Source of the DNA: an uncultured Chlorobiaceae bacterium
Lineage (GTDB): Bacteria > Bacteroidota > Chlorobiia > Chlorobiales > Chlorobiaceae
Direction: 5' to 3'
NCBI GenBank assembly: GCA_903939765.1
Contig: CAJAIK010000098.1
Span: forward strand, 1 to 64,000
DNA length: 64,000 bases
Positions 2,448 through 8,728 of the stretch are shown one piece after another. The notes below the pieces were generated by a model that was not told the origin of the DNA, did no database searches, and was given only the letters and a program-made list of their open reading frames with translations. Within the stretch, counting starts at the first letter, position 1. Each line of letters starts with the position of its first letter. The translations under genes and the position numbers were made by a program.

Positions 2448-2463
2448 GTTAACAATCGTTAAC
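2448..2463 (+). promoter_or_regulatory. Inverted repeat GTTAAC-N4-GTTAAC, possible operator of the sulfur operon
   Basis: Two GTTAAC half-sites flank AATC, starting 44 bases after the modE stop and ending 23 bases before the leader-peptide start. A TTGGAA (2427-2432) with TAACAA 17 bases downstream is a loose sigma-70-like match overlapping the dyad. A repressor or activator site at the promoter is plausible but unproven. Confidence 0.35.
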
Positions 2464-2486: not shown

Positions 2487-2582
2487 ATGAAATCAATGAC
2501 TTCGACAATCTTTATGATGTGCTGCTGCTGTTGCCTTTGGCAACACGCTTCTGACAGCAGGATATCGGAAAAAGGATTGTAA
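2487..2582 (+). CDS. Cysteine-run leader peptide of a putative attenuator (31 codons)
   Basis: The ORF starts at an ATG 6 bases after a good Shine-Dalgarno-like AAAGAG and encodes 31 residues with the core MMCCCCCLW. The five Cys codons (TGC, TGC, TGC, TGT, TGC) are contiguous at 2520-2534. It precedes a 14-bp intrinsic terminator hairpin and then a run of cysteine and sulfur genes. Amino-acid biosynthesis operons controlled by ribosome-mediated attenuation carry exactly this layout: a short ORF rich in codons for the end product, then a terminator. I infer that it senses charged tRNA-Cys. Five consecutive Cys codons in such a short ORF by chance are very unlikely. Confidence 0.8.
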   Translation: MKSMTSTIFMMCCCCCLWQHASDSRISEKGL

Positions 2583-2640
2583 CTCACAGATGATTTCGTG
2601 AAGTGCATCAACTCTTGAAAGCCGGTTCTGAATGTCAGAG
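2522..2640 (+). promoter_or_regulatory. Mutually exclusive RNA structures of the Cys attenuator
   Basis: The upstream structure pairs CTGCTG (2522-2527) with CAGCAG (2555-2560) around the inner hairpin GTTGCC-TTT-GGCAAC (2530-2544), and it overlaps the Cys codons. The segment TCTGACA (2550-2556) is partly buried in it. That segment is fully complementary to TGTCAGA (2633-2639), which overlaps the loop and 3' arm of the terminator. A ribosome stalled on the Cys codons would block the upstream hairpin. TCTGACA would then be free to pair downstream and disrupt the terminator. Pairings were found by eye; no free energies were calculated. Confidence 0.6.
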
Positions 2641-2651
2641 CCGGCTTTTTT
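2618..2651 (+). terminator. Strong intrinsic terminator of the Cys attenuator
   Basis: A 14-bp stem (arms 2618-2631 and 2635-2648, one T-G wobble) with the 3-nt loop ATG is followed by T residues continuing to 2651 and a further T-rich stretch. It lies 35 bases after the leader ORF stop and 51 bases before the DUF4395 ATG. It therefore terminates inside a leader rather than after a normal gene. Confidence 0.85.
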
Positions 2652-2702: not shown

Positions 2703-3161
2703 ATGACAACACCAACATCTGCGGCCACATGCACCGGTATACCGTTGCCGATTGTCTCACTTAACCGGGTGGTACTGCTCGCGGGCATCATTGCCGCAAT
2801 TCTGTTCCAGCAACCGCTGGTAACCACCGTGCTTTTTTTTATCATTCTTTCCGCCGTCGTGTACGGAAAAAAAGGGAGCCTTATTTTTTTTGTCGGATCA
2901 CGCCTGTTGGCCCGGCAAAACCTGAATGCAAAAACTGAAGACCAGAAGCTGATGCGCTTCAATAACTCCATTGCCGCACTTTTGCTTGGTGGTGCGCAGA
3001 TCGCCTTCCTGCTCCATGCACCGCTTGCAGGATGGATTCTTTCGGGCACCGTTGCCGTTGCTGCAGCCGTGGCCCTTGCCGGGTTCTGCTTTGGCTGCTT
3101 CCTCTTTTATCAGTTTAATTTGCAGCGTTTCAGGCTCTTCGGAAAAAATCAGCAAAATTAA
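2703..3161 (+). CDS. DUF4395 family four-helix membrane protein
   Basis: This 152-residue protein has two hydrophobic hairpins (about residues 22-60 and 98-140), giving four predicted membrane segments. It carries the family-like signature GFCFGCFLFYQ near the C-terminus, with two cysteines three residues apart. That motif and the length match DUF4395, whose function is not established. It is the first structural gene after the Cys attenuator, so its expression should follow cysteine supply. A role in transport or redox handling of a sulfur compound is an inference from position. A perfect 20-bp palindrome separates it from metY. Confidence 0.75.
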   Translation: MTTPTSAATCTGIPLPIVSLNRVVLLAGIIAAILFQQPLVTTVLFFIILSAVVYGKKGSLIFFVGSRLLARQNLNAKTEDQKLMRFNNSIAALLLGGAQIAFLLHAPLAGWILSGTVAVAAAVALAGFCFGCFLFYQFNLQRFRLFGKNQQN

Positions 3162-3242: not shown

Positions 3243-4574
3243 ATGAGTTCAGAACACTACCGCTTTGAAACACTTGCCCTTCATGCAGGTCAGCCTGTCG
3301 ATGCAACCCTGTCGAGGGGAGTACCGGTCTACCGTACCAGCTCCTACCTCTTCAAGAGCACGGAACATGCCGCAAACCTTTTTGCCCTCAAAGAGCTGGG
3401 CAATATTTACACGAGGTTGATGAACCCGACCACCGATGTCCTTGAACAGCGCCTCACACAGCTTGAGGGCGGAGCTGCATCCGTAGCCGTTGCATCAGGC
3501 ACTGCGGCAATTTTCAATACCATTATCACACTGGCCGAAGCGGGAGACGATATTGTTGCCGCAAACAATCTCTATGGAGGCACCTACACCCAGTTCGATG
3601 CCATTCTCCCGAAACTCGGCATCAACGTTACCTTCGTCGATCCGAAAGATCCTGCCAATTTTGAACGCGCAATCACCCCTAAAACAAGGGCTCTCTTTAT
3701 TGAGACCATCGGCAACCCGGTGCTTGACTATACCGATGTCAAAGCCATTGCCGAGGTAGCTCACCGCAACGGCCTTCCGCTCATTGTGGACGCAACATTC
3801 ACCACTCCCTACCTGCTCAAAACCATTGAACTCGGAGCCGACATCGTCATCAACTCCCTCACCAAATGGCTTGGCGGACATGGCGCCGGTATCGGAGGCA
3901 TCATTACCGATGCAGGGCGTTTTAACTGGAAGGGCGGGCGCCATCCGCTCTTTACAGAACCGGACAGCAACTACCACGGACTGCGCTGGGCCATTGACTT
4001 GCCAGAACCCCTCGCACCGATAGCCTTCGCCCTTCGCGTACGCACCGTGCCGCTCAGAAACCTTGGAGCATGCATTTCGCCCGACAACTCGTGGATATTC
4101 ATTCAGGGCCTCGAAACCCTGCCTGTCCGGATGGCCCGTCATTCGGAAAATGCACTCAAAATTGCAGAGCATCTTCAGCAACACCCGGAAGTGGCTTGGG
4201 TGCGTTATCCCGGCCTGAAAAATGACCCATCTTACCCGGCGGCTTCACGAGATTTGAAAAACGGGTTTGGCGGCATGGTTGTTTTTGGCGTTAAAGGCGG
4301 CTATGATGCGGCCGTAAAAATCATCGACAACATCAAGCTCTTTTCGCACCTTGCCAATGTCGGGGATGCCAAAAGCCTCATCCTCCATCCGGCAAGCACA
4401 TCGCACAGCCAGTTGACCGAAGAGCAGAAACTCCAGAGCGGCCTTTCAGGGGATCTGATCCGCCTCTCCATTGGCCTTGAACATGCCGACGACCTGATTG
4501 AGGCTCTCGACGTTGCGCTTCAAACAGAGGAGACGCACAAAACAGGCTGGCTATCGAAACTGATTAAAAAGTAG
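3243..4574 (+). CDS. metY: O-acetylhomoserine aminocarboxypropyltransferase (sulfhydrylase)
   Basis: This 443-residue PLP enzyme of the Cys/Met metabolism family has the cofactor lysine in SLTKWLGGHG (Lys208). Its length and N-terminal FETLALHAGQ...RGVPVYRTSSY are typical of O-acetylhomoserine sulfhydrylases rather than cystathionine synthases, which are about 380 residues. The enzyme joins sulfide and O-acetylhomoserine to give homocysteine, the direct route to methionine. A good RBS (AGGAG) precedes the ATG. The neighbouring cysK and cysE make cysteine from sulfide, so the operon assimilates sulfide in two ways. O-succinyl- or O-phosphohomoserine use cannot be excluded. Confidence 0.9.
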   Translation: MSSEHYRFETLALHAGQPVDATLSRGVPVYRTSSYLFKSTEHAANLFALKELGNIYTRLMNPTTDVLEQRLTQLEGGAASVAVASGTAAIFNTIITLAEAGDDIVAANNLYGGTYTQFDAILPKLGINVTFVDPKDPANFERAITPKTRALFIETIGNPVLDYTDVKAIAEVAHRNGLPLIVDATFTTPYLLKTIELGADIVINSLTKWLGGHGAGIGGIITDAGRFNWKGGRHPLFTEPDSNYHGLRWAIDLPEPLAPIAFALRVRTVPLRNLGACISPDNSWIFIQGLETLPVRMARHSENALKIAEHLQQHPEVAWVRYPGLKNDPSYPAASRDLKNGFGGMVVFGVKGGYDAAVKIIDNIKLFSHLANVGDAKSLILHPASTSHSQLTEEQKLQSGLSGDLIRLSIGLEHADDLIEALDVALQTEETHKTGWLSKLIKK

Positions 4575-5639: not shown

Positions 5640-6593
5640 ATGGGACGCATCGCAAAAAAACTGACGGATCTTATCGGTAACACTCCTCTGCTTGAGATTG
5701 GAAATTTTAGTCGTGAGCATAAGGCCGAGGCAACAATTCTTGCCAAACTTGAGTACTTCAACCCGGGTGGCAGTGTAAAGGACCGCATCGGTTTTTCAAT
5801 GATTGAGGATGCTGAAACTCGGGGACTGCTCAACAAGGAGAGCATCATTATTGAACCGACAAGCGGCAACACCGGTATTGCACTCGCATTTATTGCCGCA
5901 GCAAAAGGGTATCGGCTGATACTGACCATGCCTGAAACCATGAGTATTGAGCGCAGAAACCTGCTCAAGGCGCTTGGTGCCGAACTGGTACTGACCCCGG
6001 GCCCCGAAGGAATGAGCGGCGCAATCAGAAAAGCTGAGGCACTCAACGCGGAATATCCCAATTCATTTGTACCGCAGCAATTCAAAAACTCGGCAAATCC
6101 GGAAATCCACCGCAAAACAACCGCCGAAGAGATATGGAATGACACTGATGGAAATGTTGATATTTTTGTCAGCGGCGTCGGCACAGGCGGAACGATTACC
6201 GGTGTCGGAGAGGTACTAAAACAGCGGAACCCGGAAGTGAAAATTGTTGCGGTCGAACCATTCGATTCGCAAGTCCTTGCAGGTGGCAAACCAGGCCCGC
6301 ACAAAATACAGGGAATCGGTGCAGGCTTTATCCCCGACATCCTCAATACCGGTGTTATTGATGAAATTATCCCGGTAAAGAACGAAGATGCTCTCCGCAC
6401 GGGTCGCAAACTGGCCAAAACTGAAGGGCTCATTGTCGGCATCTCTTCAGGCGCAGCAGTCTATGCGGCGTTGCAGCTTGCACTGCGTGAGGAAAACAAG
6501 GGAAAGCGCATTGTCGTCATTCTGCCCGATACCGGAGAGCGCTACCTTTCAACACTGCTCTACCAGTCTGAAGAAGAGCCGGTCAATATCTGA
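5640..6593 (+). CDS. cysK: Cysteine synthase A (O-acetylserine sulfhydrylase)
   Basis: This 317-residue PLP enzyme carries the classical signatures: [11 protein letters not shown] at the N-terminus, the cofactor lysine in NPGGSVKDR (Lys47), the substrate loop [11 protein letters not shown], and the glycine-rich phosphate-binding [12 protein letters not shown]. It converts O-acetylserine and sulfide to cysteine in the cytoplasm. The cysE gene for its substrate follows after 60 bases, a standard pairing. It ends with the usual hydrophobic-Ile tail. The upstream palindrome at 5535-5552 may regulate it separately from the Cys attenuator. Confidence 0.96.
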
Positions 6594-6653: not shown

Positions 6654-7565
6654 ATGGAAACGAAAAGCGACTTGATCATTGAAGAGGCCATCAGGCTTTT
6701 ATCAGGCCACGGTGATGCAGAATGTGACGCTCTGGGCCATCACGAACAGTTGCTCCCCTCGATTGAAAAGCTCGAAGAGGTGGTTGAACTTCTCCGTTCG
6801 ATCATCTTTCCGGGCTATTTCGGCGGACCTGTCCTGCGGCAGCAGTCGCGCCATCACTTTCTGGGTGTGCGCATAGAAAAACTTTATGGATTGCTTGCAG
6901 GACAGATTCTCAGTGTTCAGCATTTCGACACGGAAAATAACGGTTCGGCCAACGCGGCAGAAAAAGCCTCCGAGTCCGCAAGCCAGTTCATAGGACTACT
7001 GCCTGACATCAGGCGGAAATTGTGCACGGATGTCAAGGCCATATACGACGGGGACCCGGCAGCAAAAAACTATGGAGAGATCATCTTCTGCTATCCCTCC
7101 ATCAGGGCCATGATCAATTACCGGGCGGCACATACCCTGCTTTCGCTCGGTGTGCCCCTGATTCCGAGAATCATTGCTGAAATGGCCCATTCGGAAACGG
7201 GCATCGACATTCATCCCGGAGCCCATATCGGCGACCATTTCTGCATTGATCACGGTACCGGTGTAGTCATTGGTGAAACCTGCATTATCGGCAACCACGT
7301 GCGGCTCTACCAGGGGGTAACACTTGGCGCGAAAAAGTTTGCCCTCGACGACGACGGCAACCCGGTCAAGAACCTGCCGCGCCATCCAATTATTGAAGAC
7401 AACGTCGTCATTTACTCGAACGCCAACATTCTCGGACGAATAACCATCGGCAAAAACTCGGTTATCGGAGGCAACGTCTGGCAGACCGTGAGCGTACCAC
7501 CAAATTCGAGGGTACTCCAGCAGAAAGCTGTTGAAAGCAGCTTTACTGACGGACTCGGTATATGA
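6654..7565 (+). CDS. cysE: Serine O-acetyltransferase
   Basis: The 303-residue protein has an alpha-helical N-terminal region and a C-terminal left-handed beta-helix built from hexapeptide repeats (about residues 185-285; GIDIHPGAHIGDHFCIDHG and GVVIGETCIIGN). It acetylates serine with acetyl-CoA, the first step of cysteine synthesis. The catalytic His region is seen in AHSETGIDIHPGA and DHGTGVVIGE. It lies between cysK and a cystathionine enzyme. The N-terminal extension is longer than in the E. coli enzyme, as in the epsilon-type members. The tail may mediate feedback or CysK binding, but this cannot be judged here. Confidence 0.95.
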   Translation: METKSDLIIEEAIRLLSGHGDAECDALGHHEQLLPSIEKLEEVVELLRSIIFPGYFGGPVLRQQSRHHFLGVRIEKLYGLLAGQILSVQHFDTENNGSANAAEKASESASQFIGLLPDIRRKLCTDVKAIYDGDPAAKNYGEIIFCYPSIRAMINYRAAHTLLSLGVPLIPRIIAEMAHSETGIDIHPGAHIGDHFCIDHGTGVVIGETCIIGNHVRLYQGVTLGAKKFALDDDGNPVKNLPRHPIIEDNVVIYSNANILGRITIGKNSVIGGNVWQTVSVPPNSRVLQQKAVESSFTDGLGI

Positions 7566-7591: not shown

Positions 7592-8728
7592 ATGCAATTC
7601 GAAACCCTTGCCATTCATGACGGACAGGCTCCAGACCCCCATACAGGATCGGTAACCTTTCCTATTTACCAAACATCCACCTTCGAGCGCGAAGACTTGC
7701 AGCATCACGGCGAATTCTTTTACTCAAGAATCGGCAATCCTACCCGGAAAGCGCTCGAATCAACCCTTGCCCTGCTCGAAAACGGACGCTACGGCCTCGC
7801 CTTCGCCTCCGGAGTTGCCGCCACACTCGCGGCTCTCCAGGTGGTGAAACCCGGAGAACATATTGTTGCAAGCAGCGATATCTACGGCGGGAGTTACCGC
7901 ATTTTTGAGCAACTCCTCCGCCCTCTGGGAATCACAACAACCTACGCGGAAAGTGAAGCTACCCGGAGTTATGAAGCGGCTATCACCCCGGCAACCCGGC
8001 TGATCTGGATTGAAACACCAAGCAATCCGCTCCTCCAGCTCTCTGACATCCGGGCTCTTGCCTCGCTGGCAAAAGAGCGCGGTATTTTGCTCGCTGTCGA
8101 CAACACCTTTTTAAGCCCCTACTTCCAGCGTCCGCTTGAACTGGGTGCCGATATTGTTGTCCACAGCACGACCAAATATCTTGGCGGCCACAGCGACGTC
8201 ATCGGCGGTGCCGTCGTAACCTCGGACGCAGCGCTCCATACCATCATCAAAAACTACCAGGCAACAGCGGGGGCCATACCGGCTCCCTGGGACTGCTGGC
8301 TTATTCTCCGCGGTCTGAAAACGCTCAAAATCCGCATGAAAGAGCATGAAGCGAGTGCCCTGCACCTCGCCACAATCCTTGAACAGCACCCGGCGGTAGA
8401 ACGGGTCATCTATCCGGGCCTCACTTCCCACCCGCAGCATGAACTGGCCAAAGAGCAGATGAGCGGCTTCGGAGGCATGGTCACTTTTGCACTGAAAGGG
8501 GGACTTCCGGCTGTCGAACAACTGGTATCGCGAATCAAACTCTTTGTTTTGGCCGACAGCCTCGGCGGTGTGGAGTCGCTCATCGCCTCTCCGGCGAAAA
8601 TGACGCTCGGGGCCCTCTCCAGGGAAGAGCGTGCACGGAGAAAATGTACCGACAACCTCGTGCGCCTCTCCGTCGGTCTCGAAAATGCCGGGGATCTTGA
8701 GGCTGATCTGTTGAACGCGATTGCATGA
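7592..8728 (+). CDS. Cystathionine gamma-synthase / gamma-lyase family enzyme
   Basis: The 378-residue PLP enzyme has the family pattern FETLAIHDGQAPDP at the start and the cofactor lysine in STTKYLGGHSD (Lys195). The length fits MetB or MetC/CGL rather than MetY. Sequence alone does not firmly separate gamma-synthase (cysteine to methionine direction) from gamma-lyase (cystathionine to cysteine). Its place after cysE, with metY upstream, lets it link the cysteine and homocysteine pools. It starts 26 bases after the cysE stop and is likely cotranscribed. Confidence 0.88.
   Translation: MQFETLAIHDGQAPDPHTGSVTFPIYQTSTFEREDLQHHGEFFYSRIGNPTRKALESTLALLENGRYGLAFASGVAATLAALQVVKPGEHIVASSDIYGGSYRIFEQLLRPLGITTTYAESEATRSYEAAITPATRLIWIETPSNPLLQLSDIRALASLAKERGILLAVDNTFLSPYFQRPLELGADIVVHSTTKYLGGHSDVIGGAVVTSDAALHTIIKNYQATAGAIPAPWDCWLILRGLKTLKIRMKEHEASALHLATILEQHPAVERVIYPGLTSHPQHELAKEQMSGFGGMVTFALKGGLPAVEQLVSRIKLFVLADSLGGVESLIASPAKMTLGALSREERARRKCTDNLVRLSVGLENAGDLEADLLNAIA

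Follow-up and report, generated by a model that had tools for sequence, protein, structure and literature searches.

A run of five cysteine codons within an open reading frame (ORF) of 31 codons, standing ahead of a series of sulfur genes, raises the question of how these genes are controlled in the uncultured Chlorobiaceae bacterium that provided the window analyzed here, a 64,000-nucleotide stretch of DNA. The genome is 2.98 Mb in size and its nearest named relatives are Chlorobium and uncultured Chlorobiaceae. A first-pass annotation had interpreted the site as a Cys-tRNA attenuator of the trp/his type, in which stalling at the Cys codons favors antitermination. This is the reading best supported by the sequence, covariation, geometry and gene context, and it is widened below to include a larger antiterminator and a family of leaders. 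We estimate at roughly 0.86 the probability that positions 2449-2651 are a ribosome-mediated transcription attenuator responding to Cys-tRNA supply, and from the same evidence we infer stalling, readthrough, a response to cysteine and the role of a stem at the start codon. The elements of the site and the annotated genes behind it are as follows.

2449-2462, plus strand: palindromic box TTAACAATCGTTAA, conserved upstream of the leader and probably serving as an operator or promoter element in a sulfur regulon.
2487-2582, plus strand: leader ORF of 31 codons, MKSMTSTIFMMCCCCCLWQHASDSRISEKGL, with an orthologous Cys-rich ORF in relatives.
2520-2534, plus strand: region 1 (the sensor), five consecutive Cys codons TGC TGC TGC TGT TGC, read from the sequence, Cys being kept in relatives.
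2617-2649, plus strand: intrinsic terminator hairpin followed by a T tract, from the fold (15 pairs) and covariation.
2703-3161, plus strand: DUF4395 membrane protein, the first gene past the attenuator (PF14340, E 2.3e-22).
3243-4574, plus strand: O-acetylhomoserine/O-acetylserine sulfhydrylase (TIGR01326, 589.5 bits, cut-off 495.1).
5640-6593, plus strand: cysK, cysteine synthase A (TIGR01139, 468 bits, cut-off 351).
6654-7565, plus strand: serine O-acetyltransferase of the EpsC/CysE type (NF041874, 154 bits, cut-off 150).
7592-8728, plus strand: cystathionine gamma-synthase/lyase family enzyme (PF01053; NF005871 is the best NCBIfam match, below its cut-off).

The genes lie on the same strand in the order DUF4395, sulfhydrylase, HPr-like protein, LuxR-type regulator, CysK, serine O-acetyltransferase, cystathionine gamma-synthase-family enzyme, ThiH-like and ThiF-like, and would form one transcript. 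The cysteine and methionine enzymes are assigned by profile matches and are followed by the ThiH- and ThiF-like genes, and the structural genes are ones that make or acquire the amino acid that would be sensed. In four relatives a tRNA-Cys gene (anticodon GCA) adjoins the DUF4395 gene on the same strand (L021:1391-1464, L026:1353-1430, L027:1359-1435 and L029:1326-1401). The DUF4395 protein encoded at 2703-3161 is found downstream of the leader in the relatives examined; given this tie to cysteine supply, it may take part in transporting or handling sulfur.

The leader ORF runs from an ATG at 2487 to a TAA stop at 2580-2582, and the positions first assigned to it, to its Cys codons and to the two complementary heptamers considered below (TCTGACA, 2550-2556, and TGTCAGA, 2633-2639) are all correct. 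The ribosome-binding site that had been noted is present (GAGCGACTG-ATG) but is weak and poorly conserved among relatives. The ORF itself is conserved, as had been proposed as a check: an orthologous Cys-rich mini-ORF is found at 30/30 DUF4395 loci with full upstream sequence. In Chlorobium ferrooxidans DSM 13031 the leader 5' of the DUF4395 gene reads MKAMTSNIICTSCCCCGMQSNSDTGIYRRRL. In a codon alignment the main Cys columns have a pN/pS of 0.26, compared with 0.67 before the run and 0.81 after it, and at the upstream Cys positions TGC and TGT are exchanged synonymously while Cys itself is retained. The final two Cys codons (TGT TGC) are almost fixed in their nucleotides across relatives, which suggests an additional constraint on the RNA. 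A translatable leader ORF with consecutive codons for the amino acid that the pathway makes, one element of a leader-peptide attenuator, is conserved here together with its Cys codons.

Cys-rich upstream ORFs before some copper genes have been proposed to sense metal or redox state directly. A nascent Cys-rich peptide acting in this way at the present locus, with translation stalling or continuing accordingly, is an unlikely alternative to codon sensing. Runs of three to six Cys could bind metal or become oxidized, and redox was also considered by the authors of work on mycobacterial leaders (PMC4633059), but the amino acids flanking the run change freely and are entirely different from one leader family or genus to the next, as codon sensing would predict, and the downstream genes are mostly those of sulfur assimilation, with tRNA-Cys sometimes co-located.

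As expected of a codon-sensing attenuator, an intrinsic terminator separates the leader ORF from the first structural gene. The hairpin had been described as 14 bp at 2618-2648 and is found to have 15 pairs (2617-2649) with a T tract. Its cells are paired in 97.4% of cases and five pairs show compensatory change (0/500 shuffles), while the covariation amounts to 13 cells against 2.7 in shuffles (0/500). The fold calculation that had been called for gave -65.6 kcal/mol for the RNA 2485-2655, far more stable than shuffled sequences (z = -6.5, equally stable shuffles 0/200). The mycobacterial type of leader, in which no conserved terminator stands between leader ORF and gene, thus does not describe this site, where a covarying intrinsic terminator is present.

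The competing structure was not evident from an alignment of all relatives (MAFFT, then RNAalifold), which recovered the terminator only; it emerged once truncated leaders were folded one sequence at a time. When the RNA that would be left free by a stall on the Cys run was folded, with the outer terminator arm not yet made, one architecture appeared in nearly all relatives, with the following parts.

2550-2556, plus strand: region 2, the 5' outer strand of the antiterminator, TCTGACA, pairing with 2633-2639.
2558-2568, plus strand: antiterminator inner strand CAGGATATCGG, pairing with the terminator 5' arm CCGGTTCTG (2622-2630) in truncated-leader folds.
2573-2615, plus strand: antiterminator inner stem and hairpin, with the leader stop codon (2580-2582) inside (helices 3-5, 80-82% of cells paired).
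2633-2639, plus strand: antiterminator 3' outer strand TGTCAGA, which is also the terminator loop and inner 3' arm (27 aligned leaders).

The first-pass annotation had proposed the TCTGACA:TGTCAGA pairing alone as antiterminator. Its complementarity is exact and conserved, but the proposed element was too small: its 7 bp form only the outermost helix of a more extensive structure (2550-2639), in which the terminator 5' arm is captured as well. The kinetic argument against an element that pairs with the 3' arm only therefore no longer applies. Over 27 sequences, 92% of cells are paired in the outer helix and 86% in the second helix (GGA.ATCGG:CCGGT.TCT), which occupies the terminator 5' arm; for the whole antiterminator the figure is 85%, compared with at most 40.5% when the strands are slid by one to three columns. 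The TG of TGTCAGA sits in the loop of the terminator and is dispensable for that hairpin, yet it is invariant in the 27 aligned leaders. Covarying stems had likewise been suggested as a check, and in addition to the terminator the antiterminator has a covariation score matched by only 1/500 shuffles, with 18 cells changed on both sides against 7.4 in shuffles. The number of antiterminator pairs with such change is no higher than in shuffles (6 vs 4.5, 112/500, 27 sequences), and shuffling of the free antiterminator segment gives a mean z of -1.76, moderate for single sequences. The antiterminator energies in relatives are about -22 to -34 kcal/mol, compared with -16 to -24 kcal/mol for the terminator. 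A conserved and mutually exclusive antiterminator that would be free on stalling is thus predicted, kinetic competition being assumed.

Another reading, which we regard as very unlikely, is that the leader works mainly through translation, by reinitiation or coupling, or through Rho, the intrinsic terminator being secondary. Mycobacterial poly-Cys uORFs are cited as cysteine-responsive translational attenuators (PMC13236596), and known poly-Cys uORFs have been proposed to be Rho-dependent (PMC1262725). Against this, a strong covarying terminator with a T tract lies between leader and gene and is opposed by the conserved antiterminator, while the DUF4395 start is about 120 nt past the leader stop, too far for simple coupling.

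Transcription attenuation also fits the spacing of the elements. In most relatives 18 nt separate the first base of the run's final Cys codon from the start of region 2, and the leader stop codon follows 30 nt after region 2; these distances, as read from the aligned leaders, are the geometry expected of ribosome-mediated attenuation. If a Cys codon occupied the A site, the ribosome would reach to just short of region 2, whereas a ribosome positioned at the stop would lie over the ATCGG strand and the inner stem, masking the latter because the stop is inside it. In models of 29 leaders, a stall on the Cys run sequesters 8.1 of the 13.4 nt of the terminator 5' arm (-28 kcal/mol), compared with 2.6 nt for a ribosome at the stop (-6.9 kcal/mol) and 3.3 nt for the untranslated leader. 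By computation, therefore, a ribosome at the stop codon would prevent the antiterminator from forming. At equilibrium the completed terminator still prevails in most species, even when a stalled ribosome is included in the model, so that antitermination would have to be kinetic, the choice being made during transcription as in known attenuators.

According to the proposed mechanism, a ribosome would translate the 31-codon ORF as RNA polymerase moves along the leader. Ample Cys-tRNA would let the ribosome reach the stop at 2580 and cover the inner antiterminator, leaving the terminator 5' arm free, and the 2617-2649 hairpin would form and stop transcription. With scarce Cys-tRNA the ribosome would stall on the Cys run with its front edge just short of TCTGACA (2550), so that 2550-2616 could fold while the terminator is still incomplete; the freed segment would then capture the terminator 5' arm (2622-2630) together with the loop and inner 3' arm (2633-2639), and with the terminator blocked the polymerase would read into the DUF4395-OAHS-...-cysK-cysE-metB/C-thi genes.

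A leader that is not translated at all is addressed by a further stem, formed by two strands.

2487-2495, plus strand: 5' strand of the long-range stem, start codon region ATGAAATCA, pairing with 2591-2599 and covarying.
2591-2599, plus strand: 3' strand of the long-range stem, TGATTTCGT, just past the leader stop, from pairing counts.

This stem joins ATGAAATCA, at the start of the leader, to TGATTTCAT, immediately 3' of the leader stop (duplex mean z -2.4). In it 85% of cells are paired, compared with at most 48% when slid, and changes on both sides affect eight cells where shuffles give 2.8 (0/500). Such double changes include ATGAATTCA:TGAATTCAT and, in the relative L028, ATGAAACA:TGTTTCAT, read straight from the sequences. 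This stem would conflict with the inner hairpin of the antiterminator, and by disrupting the latter it would make termination the default for an untranslated leader. It is better supported than the hairpin over the Cys codons that had been suggested from the window alone. That hairpin, the classical pairing of the Cys codons with region 2, is strong in some species (TGTTGC:GCARCA) and absent in others (mean z -0.9), and was rejected as a general feature.

A protein search found DUF4395 orthologues in 34/61 genomes. The 30 loci with full upstream DNA all have a short ORF with two to seven Cys, region 2 or a variant of it, a stop and a GCCGG-type terminator. Three further orthologues are without a complete leader, one being near a contig end, where the terminator alone remains, and two having no such terminator. 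Lack of conservation of the mini-ORF or of the alternative stems in relatives would have spoken against attenuation; instead the ORF is present at every such locus and the stems are conserved. A covariance model built from 27 leaders matched in 47/65 genomes of the genus at E <= 5.1e-11, and several genomes of the genus are without the leader. Among divergent relatives (L028-L030) some have only two or three Cys codons and an altered region 2. In the sister genus the Cys runs and terminator are kept before DUF4395 (PCCCD and TCCHCC), the sulfate-binding protein and a porin, while the peptides are otherwise unlike. Weak model matches outside the family were not accepted as leaders, the single one inspected (L236) having no Cys leader. 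An Rfam search of the window gave no family at gathering score and nothing credible at relaxed thresholds.

The window's genome contains at least five poly-Cys leaders with terminators, including the 2487-2651 site. They were enumerated with a pattern (a GGCTTTTT terminator behind a Cys run) together with the covariance model, an incomplete search that misses other terminator endings, and the further leaders found in this way are listed here.

L202 and L227: leader of the sulfate-binding protein-CysT-CysW-CysA operon.
L170: leader of a porin.
L171: leader of a radical-SAM/ABC-transporter cluster with an SsuA-like binding protein.
L169 (G000:C117): leader of a BadF-ATPase/HGD-D cluster.

The sulfate-binding protein scores above its NCBIfam cut-off, and across the genus a Cys-rich leader ORF is correctly placed at 28/30 of its loci, the other two being near a contig end or having a doubtful start. 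The peptides of different operons have no evident similarity beyond Cys. In the leaders of the sulfate-binding protein and porin genes the contrast in folding between stall and stop is the same as at the 2487-2651 leader, and their modelled state with no ribosome does not free the terminator arm. Directly upstream of a second gene resembling that of the sulfate-binding protein (G000:C100), no such leader is present.

Several neighborhoods of these leaders have features of their own. A BadF/BadG-type ATPase and a 2-hydroxyglutaryl-CoA dehydratase-like protein are encoded under or near Cys leaders at L169, L176 and L179, with SsuA-like binding proteins near the clusters at L176 and L179, and the pair is possibly a reductive route that releases sulfur from organosulfur compounds. 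The cluster at L171:779-4861 combines a taurine/sulfonate-type ABC transporter with radical SAM proteins assigned to the NF045502 variant family, and lies behind a Cys leader. The porin leaders (L109-L116, L126, L128) share an upstream ACCATA..TATGGTATATGCTTG block that recurs before some leaders of the sulfate-binding protein and sulfonate-type genes and is likely to be another putative operator or promoter.

The box at 2449, with the leader ATG about 25 nt 3' of it, is found as TTAACAAT(C/T)GTTAA, exactly or as a close variant, in nearly all relatives. The palindrome TTAACAAT(C/T)GT(T/G)AA has only three exact sites in the genome (2449-2462, L227:1075 and L227:9739), which precede the leader at 2487, the operon for sulfate transport and a convergent operon interpreted as cysND/cysH/sulfite reductase. 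Since each copy stands before a sulfur-assimilation operon, a shared transcription factor is suggested, and the box is probably the operator of a regulator. The operon of this genome interpreted as cysH/cysD/cysN-sir has the box, and no Cys leader was seen in its sequence. The box also bears on the proposal that the hairpin merely terminates the upstream modE-type gene, which ends at 2403 on the same strand about 215 bp 5' of it and has modE-like counterparts before the leader in several relatives, the mini-ORF being fortuitous or an unrelated small gene; this is extremely improbable, given that the box and a conserved promoter-like block separate modE from the leader, that other relatives keep the leader behind different upstream sequence, that the antiterminator and Cys codons are conserved, and that Cys leaders recur before unrelated genes.

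We consider it reasonably likely that the poly-Cys leaders form a Chlorobiaceae cysteine-starvation regulon. It would consist of at least five separate poly-Cys transcription attenuators, controlling sulfate transport, porins, sulfonate-type uptake, radical-SAM and BadF/HGD-D clusters, and Cys/Met synthesis, independent of the actinobacterial ones and with the TTAACAAT-palindrome operator common to some. Charged tRNA-Cys would then serve as a genome-wide sulfur signal, a part comparable to that of CysB or CymR elsewhere. Such a regulon around the 2487-2651 site is a larger finding than a single attenuator.

Like the trp/his/leu-type attenuators, the proposed device has a leader peptide with a run of codons for the regulated amino acid, a choice of terminator or antiterminator set by ribosome position, and an intrinsic terminator before a biosynthetic operon. 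It differs from them in its signal, cysteine, and its host, the Chlorobiota, in an antiterminator that takes the terminator 5' arm together with the loop and inner 3' arm, in a region 2 that lies inside the leader ORF, in the stem between the start codon and the region past the stop, and in being repeated before transporters and porins as well as enzymes. Poly-Cys leaders in mycobacteria are reportedly cysteine-responsive (Canestrari, 2020). Actinobacterial leaders are similar in that small Cys-run ORFs, several per genome, precede operons for cysteine and sulfur, but those ORFs are leaderless and their mode is described as translational, in contrast to the full terminator/antiterminator pair of Chlorobiaceae. 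Cys-run leaders with no conserved terminators were predicted in Actinobacteria (Seliverstov, 2005, PMC1262725), and mycobacterial ones were proposed from profiling (Shell, 2015, PMC4633059), in agreement with the earlier remark that such leaders are reported for actinobacteria. The SAM-Chlorobi RNA motif (RF01724) is also a predicted cis-regulatory RNA of sulfur metabolism in Chlorobi, but it lies upstream of metK/ahcY and has no leader peptide described. A broad survey of attenuators mentions Chlorobia for a T-box alone (PMC2965389). As the first-pass annotation had supposed, no report of cysteine attenuation in Chlorobi/Chlorobiota was found in the literature searched, which did not cover the survey of Lopatovskaya (2010).

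If correct, this reading would add a cysteine attenuator complete with terminator and antiterminator, in a phylum where the literature search turned up none, and a regulon-wide sulfur sensor that is not confined to one biosynthetic operon. It would also point to DUF4395, the BadF/HGD-D and radical-SAM clusters and the porins as sulfur-acquisition genes and serve as a test case for the convergent evolution of Cys-codon sensing. For the organisms themselves, it would help to explain how assimilatory sulfur uptake is controlled in green sulfur bacteria, iron-oxidizing relatives such as Chlorobium ferrooxidans among them.
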